NCBI GenBank assembly: GCA_003978565.1 | Contig: QNZC01000070.1 | Span: 1-45,294, forward strand | Direction: 5' to 3' | DNA length: 45,294 nucleotides | Source: Persephonella sp. | GTDB taxonomy: Bacteria; Aquificota; Aquificia; Aquificales; Hydrogenothermaceae | In this document: positions 42,212 through 45,294 of the stretch, one piece after another | Numbering within the stretch: the stretch's first letter is position 1 | Layout: each line of letters starts with the position of its first letter | The notes under the pieces: model-generated | Told to the model about the DNA's origin: nothing | What the model saw: only the letters and a program-made list of their open reading frames with translations | The model's database searches: none | Position numbers and translations under genes: made by a program

Positions 42212-43266
42212 TCAGCAAGTATAGCTCTCATCTACAAGCACAGTTCTTATCCCATATTCACTTGCTTTATATTCTATCTGTTTTGATACTCTACCGTGTG
42301 GTAGTAAACTTAACATCTGGTCTACTATGCTTGATAGCTTACTTTCTTTGTTCTTGCTCTCTTGGAGCTTTCCTATTACTATGGTTGAAACATTATATTT
42401 CTTTGCAAGCTCTACTATTGGATTTGAAATCTTATGGCAAAAGTCTCTTATTAGGTTGTTTATCTTTTTTTGTATCCTATGGAGTATTTTGTCTACTCTA
42501 CTTGTTGACAGCCCCTTTGTTTAACAGATTATCTCTCTTCTTTTGCCATTTTGCTAGTTTCTTTAGGTATTTCCTTAATATTGACTGTATCCCTTTTCCA
42601 TCTACTATCTTTTTCTATCACAATCGTTGCAAAGTTTGATACTCCGTAGTCTATTGCTAATGCTTTATCTGTTTTTGGTTTAGGCTCTTCTATTTCTTTT
42701 TCGTATACTATGTTTAGTCTGTAAGTAATGTTTCCATATGCTTTGTATGGTGAAATTTGTATGTTTAGTATGTTTAACTGACTTAAGTCTAATCCTGTTT
42801 CTAGTGTAAGGTAGTTTATGTCTATGTTGTGTTTATCTTTCAAATGCTGTTTTAAATCTTTTGATATGGATAGTCTTATAGTATTTCCTTCTATCTTAAA
42901 TCCTGTTTTATCGTATATTACTGGTCTGTGTGGTAGTGATTTTTTGTTGTATTTTGGTGGCTTTACTGGTGATGGATATTTTTCTGTATTTTGCAGATAC
43001 TTAAAAAAGTTTTGCCAAGCTCTTGATAGCTCATCTAATATAATTTGTGCTGTTCTACTTTGTAAAGATTTTTTATGTATTGAGGTGTCTTTTAATTTAT
43101 TGTATAGGTCAAACTTATTTGGTTTAGCCAGTTTGTTTTTTATAAGGTAGTTAGCTTCATTCCAAAGCCGTCCTGCGTGATAGGTTAAATAGCCTAATAC
43201 TATTTGTGTTGTTTCATCTATATTGTTTAACTCTATTCTTAAGCTTCTTTTTACTTTCCTTGACAT
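42212..43266 (-). pseudogene. tnpB: tnpB remnant (IS200/IS605 OrfB, RNA-guided nuclease family)
   Basis: The first frame (43266-42529) holds 245 residues with the TnpB N-terminal domain and RuvC-I motif ALAIDYGVSN (Asp206). It ends at a TAA after KMAKEER. The rest continues in another frame, with KINNLIRDFCHK, TIVIGKL and LVDESYTC, then TGA at 42212, exactly where the C-terminal zinc ribbon (Cys pairs) should begin. The RuvC-II position reads IVIGKL with Gly in place of the usual acid, as in some subgroups that use the DES acid instead. Frameshift plus truncation indicate loss of function. Confidence 0.85.
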
Positions 43267-43554: not shown

Positions 43555-43905
43555 TTCGCCTGTATCTATTTTCTAAAGAAAATGGTTTTAGGTGAAAAAA
43601 TTTTTCTATAAATCTTCTTTCCTCATTTTATCTACGTATTCAATGCCTGTTTCCTTTAACTCTTTTAAAGCTCCTGCGGTAGAAAGAACCTTTTCTATTT
43701 TTTTTCTTTTGATATATTCTGATAAAGCCTCTTTTACTATTTCACTAAAATTATTGGAAATGCTTTTTGCTTCTTTATATAACTCTTCTGGTAAAGATAT
43801 AGTTTTCTTAACCACTGCCATTGTAATACCTATTTATATTAATTACTTATTATGTCAAATGATAACCCATATAACCTATCTTGTTAATAAGGTGTTTCGC
43901 CTGTA
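43553..43905 (+). repeat. 12-bp direct repeat flanking the antitoxin gene
   Basis: GTTTCGCCTGTA occurs at 43553-43564, at the IS left end, and again at 43894-43905, on the far side of the antitoxin gene. The copies are in the same orientation and enclose about 330 bp. The second may be a relic of another IS end or of an imprecise rearrangement. Confidence 0.5.
43606..43821 (-). CDS. Ribbon-helix-helix antitoxin-like protein (orphan)
   Basis: This 71-residue protein begins VVKKTISLPEELYKEAK, a MetJ/Arc-type beta strand and helix typical of CopG/VapB antitoxins, followed by a second helix and an acidic/basic C-terminal tail that would bind the toxin. Antitoxins normally precede their toxin gene directly, but here the stop is followed on the - strand by the left end of the IS remnant and no toxin-like reading frame. 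It may have lost its partner through the insertion, or it may be a solitary repressor. Confidence 0.75.
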   Translation of the reverse strand: MAVVKKTISLPEELYKEAKSISNNFSEIVKEALSEYIKRKKIEKVLSTAGALKELKETGIEYVDKMRKEDL

Positions 43906-43974: not shown

Positions 43975-43997
43975 GAATAATGTGGAGGGGAATAAAA

Positions 43998-44738
43998 ATG
44001 AAACAAGAAATCCTTAAACTTTATGAAAAGGAAGGTTTATTTAAAAACAGAATATGTCTTGAATGTAGAAAGAGTGGTAAAGAAAAAAATTACTATCCTT
44101 TAGGATTTTGGCAAGTAGGAAAACTTTTTGATAGGGAAAAAATAAGGATAATTTTTGCAGGAAAACCTCATAGAGGAAATTTAGATAGCAAAATAATTAA
44201 AGAAGAAAACTTTTTAGTAGCAGATGTTAACCAGATAGCAAATGATTTGTTCTTTAATAAGAACTGGCCTTATTGGTCATATACAAAAGAGATATTAAAG
44301 AAAGTATATAACACTGATGACAAAGGTGCATGGGACAGATTAGCTTTTACAAATGTTATAAAATGCAGTTTAGAGAGAAATGAACGCAATGATAATACAC
44401 CTGACTATTTAAAACAATTTTGTTTGAAAGAATTCGGTATATTTTGGAAAGAAATACTATTATTAAAGCCAACCCATGTTGTTCTTTATTTGGGAAAACA
44501 TTATGATGAATATATAAATAATGAAACTATAAAATCTTTTATACCTGCAGAAAAAATAGATGAAATAACTTCTAATGATTACTACATTCAGGTTGGTAAA
44601 AAAATATGTTGGTGGTGGCATAGAATTATTTACTTGTCAAATAAAGAAATAAATATATTAAGAGTGTGCCATCCAGAAAGGAAGAAAAAAGTAGATTTTA
44701 CAAATGAAATAGTAAAATGGATTAATAAAACTTCATAA
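43998..44738 (+). CDS. Uracil-DNA glycosylase superfamily-like protein with a probable [4Fe-4S] cluster
   Basis: The 246-residue protein looks like a UDG-superfamily member. Cys20-x2-Cys23, Cys123 and Cys142 match the spacing of the four cluster cysteines of family 4 UDGs. TNVIKC (118-123) and VLYLGKH fit the core strands, and VCHPER (223-228) sits where the catalytic-loop HP motif occurs. The first active-site motif is AGKPHRG (54-60) instead of GExPG, so substrate or chemistry may differ from uracil excision. ATG 43998 is chosen for the GGAGG site at 43984-43988; an ATG at 43980 would contain it. The Nmad2-like gene follows 11 bp later. Confidence 0.6.
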   Translation: MKQEILKLYEKEGLFKNRICLECRKSGKEKNYYPLGFWQVGKLFDREKIRIIFAGKPHRGNLDSKIIKEENFLVADVNQIANDLFFNKNWPYWSYTKEILKKVYNTDDKGAWDRLAFTNVIKCSLERNERNDNTPDYLKQFCLKEFGIFWKEILLLKPTHVVLYLGKHYDEYINNETIKSFIPAEKIDEITSNDYYIQVGKKICWWWHRIIYLSNKEINILRVCHPERKKKVDFTNEIVKWINKTS

Positions 44739-44749
44739 TAGAGGAGGGA

Positions 44750-45294
44750 ATGATGGCAAAGTATTTATTTTATAGGATGACTCATGACTCTGGATTTGCA
44801 CCAAATCCGTTTTGGGGATATTTGACTTTAGTAGCATGTGCTCCTAACCATTCTGACCAAGCAAAAGGTTTGAAGGTGGGAGACTGGATAATAGGAGTTG
44901 AAGCTAAATCATTAGCAGAATGTAGGAAAAGGGTAGGACTTAATTCTGATGTGGAACAATCTTTAATTTATGTAGCAAAAATTGATGAGATACTTGGACT
45001 AGATGAATACTTTAAAGATAAAAGATTTGAGAATAAAAAAGTTAATAAAAAAGTGATGATTATAGAGAAAGAAGGGGAGACAATGTTTATTATATTGAAG
45101 ATGGAAAATAGAAATGGTTAAGAGGCCATGATCATGAACCAGATGAATTGCGTAAGCTACCAGATGAAGAAGTTTTTTTTAAAACAGAAGATTTAAAAAA
45201 TTTTTTAAAAGATGAGGACGCTAAAAGAAAATATGGGGTTATTTTACAGGATTTAAAAGGTAATAGAGTGTATATTTCAAAAGAATTCTTATAT
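44750..45294 (+). pseudogene. Nmad2-like (nucleotide modification associated) protein, frameshifted and partial
   Basis: The first frame (44750-45121) begins with a GFAPNPFWGYLTLVACAP segment, VGDWIIGVEAKS and DEYFKDKRF, which resemble the Nmad2 domain, predicted to act in DNA base modification systems. Around 45074-45078 (GGGGA) the frame changes by one base: the alternative frame reads GDNVYYIEDGK, then a TAG (45109-45111) in place of a likely Trp codon, then KWLRGHDHEPDE and further to the window edge. A base loss and a nonsense change together suggest decay. The gene is coupled to the UDG-like gene by SD GGAGG at 44743-44747. Confidence 0.6.

Follow-up and report, generated by a model that had tools for sequence, protein, structure and literature searches.

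The window analysed in this study, a stretch of 45,294 nt, corresponds to contig 1 in the incomplete draft assembly of a thermophilic Persephonella sp. (69% complete, 88 contigs), and the end of the window is the end of the contig. Two forward-strand genes lie near this end. Gene A (43998..44738) encodes a protein of 246 amino acids and is preceded, 7 nt 5' of its ATG, by the ribosome-binding sequence GGAGGGG (43984..43990, forward strand); by profile-profile match to the family-4 uracil-DNA glycosylases (UDGs), its product reads as a divergent family-4-like protein of the UDG superfamily with four cysteines of the Fe-S type. Gene B starts 11 nt past the stop of gene A and has its own GAGGAGGG. 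The accessory neighbours reported for this pair in the initial annotation were both found upstream on the reverse strand, namely an orphan CcdA-like antitoxin gene (43606-43821; PF07362, E 1.8e-6), with no toxin gene adjoining, and a truncated remnant of an IS605 OrfB-like transposase (42529-43266).

The product of gene B, previously described as resembling Nmad2, is a genuine Nmad2 by profile (PF18753, E 3.7e-23, 82.5 bits at a cut-off of 26.1), and it does not hold a complete Nmad2 domain in one open frame. In a frame comparison with an unbroken Nmad2 from a Desulfurobacteriaceae genome, the intact-frame part of gene B (44750..45121, forward strand; 48% identity over 121 columns) was found to represent the N-terminal half of the domain, in a frame that runs from 44753 to a stop at 45121. 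The remainder was recovered in a shifted frame (45073..45294, forward strand; tblastn, 50% identity over 74 aa), where it is cut by the contig end. The frameshift lies near 45075, and the second half carries an in-frame TAG at 45109-45111. Since these lesions are near the end of a draft contig, they could in part be errors of sequencing or assembly. Another draft genome carries a close Nmad2 relative (L021:2311-3206) whose frame also looks broken. The search of Nmad2 against solved structures gave no match. The claim of a two-gene unit holds for gene A, which is complete, and fails for gene B, the disruption and truncation of which had been missed; because of this damage to gene B, a working two-gene cassette in the Persephonella genome is doubtful.

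The protein of gene A gave no direct match in Pfam, PHROGs, NCBIfam, PADLOC or the PDB sequences, and the match to the UDG profile PF03167 expected from its UDG-like description was not obtained for the window protein. One relative, that of L102, scored below the PF03167 threshold (18.1 bits, cut-off 24.3; E 0.0029). In the comparison of profiles by hhalign, the gene-A family matched an alignment of 15 family-4 UDG sequences with a probability of 83-88% (E ~3e-6 to 9e-6), as against a probability of <1% for each of five other protein families. Single UDG sequences scored above all 260 decoy proteins in 13 of 15 cases with profile A8 and in 11 of 15 with profile A11. The cysteines, NxxKC, a P-T-H-V strand and HP are shared with the family-4 UDGs in the same order.

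For structure prediction, an AlphaFold model built from members of the gene-A family only (pLDDT 82.7, pTM 0.87) was used, and a model from two sequences (pLDDT 37.5) was set aside. In the Foldseek search of a viral library, the top three matches of the family model (probability 1.00, 0.95 and 0.75) were long proteins of phages, of which two bear the name DNA polymerase, and named UDGs followed further down the list. With a family-4 UDG as the query, UDG-like segments were recovered from DNA polymerases of phages, including Rhizobium phages. The UDG-like domains of phage family-A DNA polymerases are thus the best viral-library likeness of gene A, which differs from them in standing alone, without a polymerase. 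The PDB search was less favourable: no UDG was present among the top 50 structure matches, and no UDG reached E <= 0.001 in either the PDB or the viral structure library. For the UDG fold, the viral library points to UDG-bearing proteins, and the top 50 of the PDB do not. The origin of gene A in the UDG superfamily, with Fe-S cysteines, is supported by the remote-homology evidence from both profile comparison and structure search, and we consider gene A very probably a member of this superfamily, called remote because no solved UDG is among its top 50 PDB matches.

Four cysteines of gene A, C20, C23, C123 and C142, occupy the family-4 order (CxxC ... KC ... C) and are conserved in the gene-A family, confirming the ligand-like placement recognized earlier; they are predicted to be the ligands of a 4Fe-4S cluster. 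On the forward strand, the codons of C20-x-x-C23, kept across the family, lie at 44055..44066, NVIKC (N119 to C123), which aligns with the family-4 NxxKC and includes the third cluster cysteine, at 44352..44366, and C142, the fourth predicted ligand by family alignment, at 44421..44423. N119, aligned with the family-4 Asn before KC, is the proposed base-holding residue. The proposed base-stacking residue is Y92 within WPYW (residues 90-93; 44265..44276, forward strand), of which WxYW is invariant in close family members. In the register proposed here, Y92 would stand at the F of family-4 RPFVG, near the residues that stack the base in S. tokodaii UDG (F55) and in Brig1 (Y121) (PMC11078745). 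H225-P226 (CHPERK; 44670..44675, forward strand) is at the HPS position of UDG motif B, and HP is kept in the close family; the rest of the family-4 motif B, HPS[SA][LV][LV]R, is not matched, as gene A continues HPERKKK. N119 and H225 appear to take the places of N91 and H178 of UdgX, which hold uracil, while E52 of that enzyme activates the nucleophile (PMC10359453).

A departure from family 4 is seen in motif A, where GE[A/G]PG with its catalytic Glu, the residue that activates the attacking water or histidine, is absent and gene A has, as first noticed in the initial annotation, AGKPHRG (residues 54-60; 44157..44177, forward strand). The Glu is replaced by Lys (K56) in all close family members, in which R59 is also kept (GK..R[GN], with the variants GKPHRG, GKNARG, GKAARG and GKNARN among the relatives); the distant L127 has neither. 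Together with HPERKKK, the long WPYWSYT segment and the lack of a PF03167 match, this sets gene A apart from the family-4 UDGs, with which it shares the four ordered cysteines, NxxKC, HP near the C-terminus and its best profile-profile match. Because the motif-A Glu is lost, ordinary uracil excision by gene A is unlikely, although recognition of a base may persist; that K56 and R59 are conserved hints at a positive role for them, perhaps in chemistry. By analogy with UdgX, another family-4-like relative in which motif A is altered and a new chemistry has arisen close to it (PMC10359453), changes near motif A may bring new chemistry; UdgX differs, however, in keeping the motif-A Glu and in having the R-loop KRRIH with its nucleophilic His, which is absent from gene A.

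Single-sequence searches with gene A over GTDB contigs, plasmids and phages gave no match, nor did a scan of viral contigs with two degenerate DNA patterns. Relatives were gathered stepwise, from genomes G105 and G418, eight viral contigs, genomes G946 and G1183, the distant G1444 and a Polaromonas plasmid. The G105 relative is 63% identical, and its contig stops inside the gene; the plasmid relative is cysteine-poor and more distant than the G1444 copy. Members of the gene-A family were present in 2 of 136 genomes in the search of its own phylum, in 1 of 349 in the phylum draw of the Eubacterium-type genome G170, from which the G418 relative came, and, around G418, in 2 of 295 genomes of the order and 3 of 186 of the class (one of the three being a 34-position fragment). 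None was found in 346 genomes of a Bacteroidales-type draw, and a Polaromonas-type draw of 190 genomes gave one weak match. The gene-A family is rare and scattered.

The phage copies (L104:9983-10678, L103 and L105-L110) are each a lone gene on the reversed strand inside a tail operon, the flanking genes reading as tape-measure and tail-assembly genes. A reversed lone gene in a phage tail operon is a typical site of accessory cargo. Two predicted phage contigs from one source genome (2511231106) each carry a gene-A relative. The G418 relative (L102) overlaps through TAATG with a gene for a 594-aa protein bearing an RNRNLIIH (RxxxxxH) motif; the name HEPN was considered for this partner and dropped, the motif being the only indication and Pfam giving no convincing family. 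The G946 relative (L125:7252-7923, reverse strand), split by a TAA stop, is downstream of genes for a macro-domain protein and a WYL regulator, and the distant G1444 relative adjoins type I restriction genes and an integrase. The L126 relative is solitary, and L126 and L004 are among the members that are solitary or in unclear surroundings. PADLOC gave no match for the family members tested. The surroundings of the relatives appear to be of defence or mobile type, none of them being proof.

As a test of the proposed cassette, 51 Nmad2 loci were collected by profile. A gene-A relative was found near none of the 51 and nowhere in 36 of the genomes with such loci, and Nmad2 adjoins none of the gene-A relatives found elsewhere; recurrence of the pair, a check proposed in the initial annotation, was not found. 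Because the partner is broken and the pair does not recur, the cassette reading is weakened. At most of the Nmad2 loci, an Nmad3-type gene directly adjoins Nmad2 or is fused to it. Fusions of Nmad2 with an Nmad3-type domain occur in both orders at L033:7266-8597 and L051:7971-9902 (Pfam-confirmed for L033 only). A search for Nmad3 as the missing partner in the phylum of the window gave no match, an empty answer that is not proof of absence. Two same-class genomes carry an intact lone Nmad2 among core genes, beside a chorismate-synthase-like gene (L010:7688-8437 and L011:7745-8512).

Plasmid Nmad2 operons contain a ThsB-like TIR gene, plus either MazG_C with a UDG or a 5-hmdU kinase; in L013, L015 and L019 the order TIR-Nmad2-MazG_C-UDG was found, with a non-Fe-S UDG. 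These operons, including those with HMUDK, resemble the Persephonella locus in bringing Nmad2 together with a UDG-superfamily gene, but the plasmid UDG matches PF03167, lacks the Fe-S cysteines and shows no match to gene A, and no TIR or MazG_C gene is present beside gene A in the window. The combination of UDG and Nmad2 does recur, but with a UDG of another kind. A relationship of gene A to the plasmid UDGs beside Nmad2 was rejected (probability <1% in profile comparison), as were two UDG-like candidates within 5 kb of Nmad2 (L046:5104-5832 and L070:7017-8180), which stood out within the decoy set but were noise against the family-4 profile. Nmad, MazG-C and UDG are among the domains of predicted, not yet validated defence systems listed in a 2026 study (PMC13092281).

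A precedent is given by Brig1, which belongs to the UDG superfamily, is found in defence loci and targets a modified base of phage DNA, excising alpha-glucosyl-hmC and protecting against T-even phages (PMC11078745). Gene A shares with the anti-phage DNA glycosylases Brig1 and Brig3 (PMC11078745, PMC13160076) an aromatic Tyr at the stacking place of Brig1, and differs from Brig1 at the base-reading place, Glu147 there being Asn in gene A (by the family-4 alignment and the published residue map). Our preferred reading, with a probability of about 50%, is that gene A encodes a defence-type glycosylase or reader of modified bases, accompanied in the Persephonella genome by a damaged Nmad2. Both defence and catalysis are a best guess from context and motif reasoning. 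The family would consist of rare, mobile UDG-superfamily proteins related to the family-4 (Fe-S) UDGs, in which a pyrimidine-type base of modified or otherwise foreign phage DNA is flipped into a pocket of Y92, N119 and H225. The base might then be cut off by a lysine-based chemistry in place of the glutamate-water one, or it might only be recognised and a signal passed to a partner, presumably Nmad2 in Persephonella sp. and other genes in other genomes. Its role would lie in defence against phages or in inter-phage exclusion rather than in housekeeping repair.

That gene A is not a housekeeping gene is indicated by the canonical family-4 UDG that the host carries elsewhere (G000:C14). An ordinary repair glycosylase with no connection to phages, acting on an unusual lesion such as bases deaminated in a thermophile, would agree with the UDG relationship and the Fe-S cysteines, but it is improbable given the presence of gene A in 2 of the 136 genomes searched in the phylum, as compared with 128 of 136 for the canonical UDG, and the copies in phage tail operons and accessory contexts. 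Still less credible is a three-layer alpha/beta/alpha protein that carries a cysteine cluster and has no relationship to UDGs. The PDB fold search, which returned gephyrin E-domain and MoaB-like alpha/beta proteins and no UDG in its top 50, points that way; these matches are nevertheless weak (E 0.07 or worse, TM mostly ~0.3 by query length), the family-4 order is matched by the cysteines, by NxxKC, by the P-T-H-V strand and by HP, the profile comparison beats the decoys, and the viral library leads to UDG-bearing polymerases and named UDGs.

Two further readings deserve more weight, each of them still unlikely to be the right one. A catalytically dead reader would use its UDG-like fold to bind a base, modified or abasic, and so control an effector encoded by a partner, with no excision. 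This would account for the change of the motif-A Glu to Lys in every close member alongside the retention of the base-holding Asn and His, and for the variety of partners (Nmad2, the 594-aa RxxxxxH protein and the macro-domain protein), yet the conservation of K56 and R59 speaks for a positive role, and the solitary phage copies are without an evident partner. Alternatively, the locus may be the decayed leftover of a mobile defence island that no longer works, even if gene A itself is intact, as the frameshift and TAG in Nmad2 and the IS605 OrfB remnant and orphan antitoxin gene alongside would suggest; against this, the reading frame of gene A is complete, its ribosome-binding site is good and a relative shares 63% identity with it, and the Nmad2 lesions may partly be artefacts of the draft contig end.

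We tentatively suggest, as a rather speculative extension, a new Fe-S UDG-like clade of phage conflict, with Lys for the motif-A Glu, which would act either by lysine-based cutting or covalent trapping of modified bases, or as a base reader switching interchangeable partners (Nmad2, the RxxxxxH protein or the macro-domain protein). The demonstration that DNA glycosylases can protect bacteria from phages whose bases are modified is recent (Brig1, PMC11078745). If the preferred reading is true, the group of anti-phage glycosylases would be widened by a family with a UDG base pocket and Fe-S cysteines and, in its close members, a changed catalytic residue, and a testable case would be at hand for what the Nmad2 domain does in modified-base systems. 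The gene-A family may thus have a little-known part in conflicts in which modified or foreign DNA is at stake.
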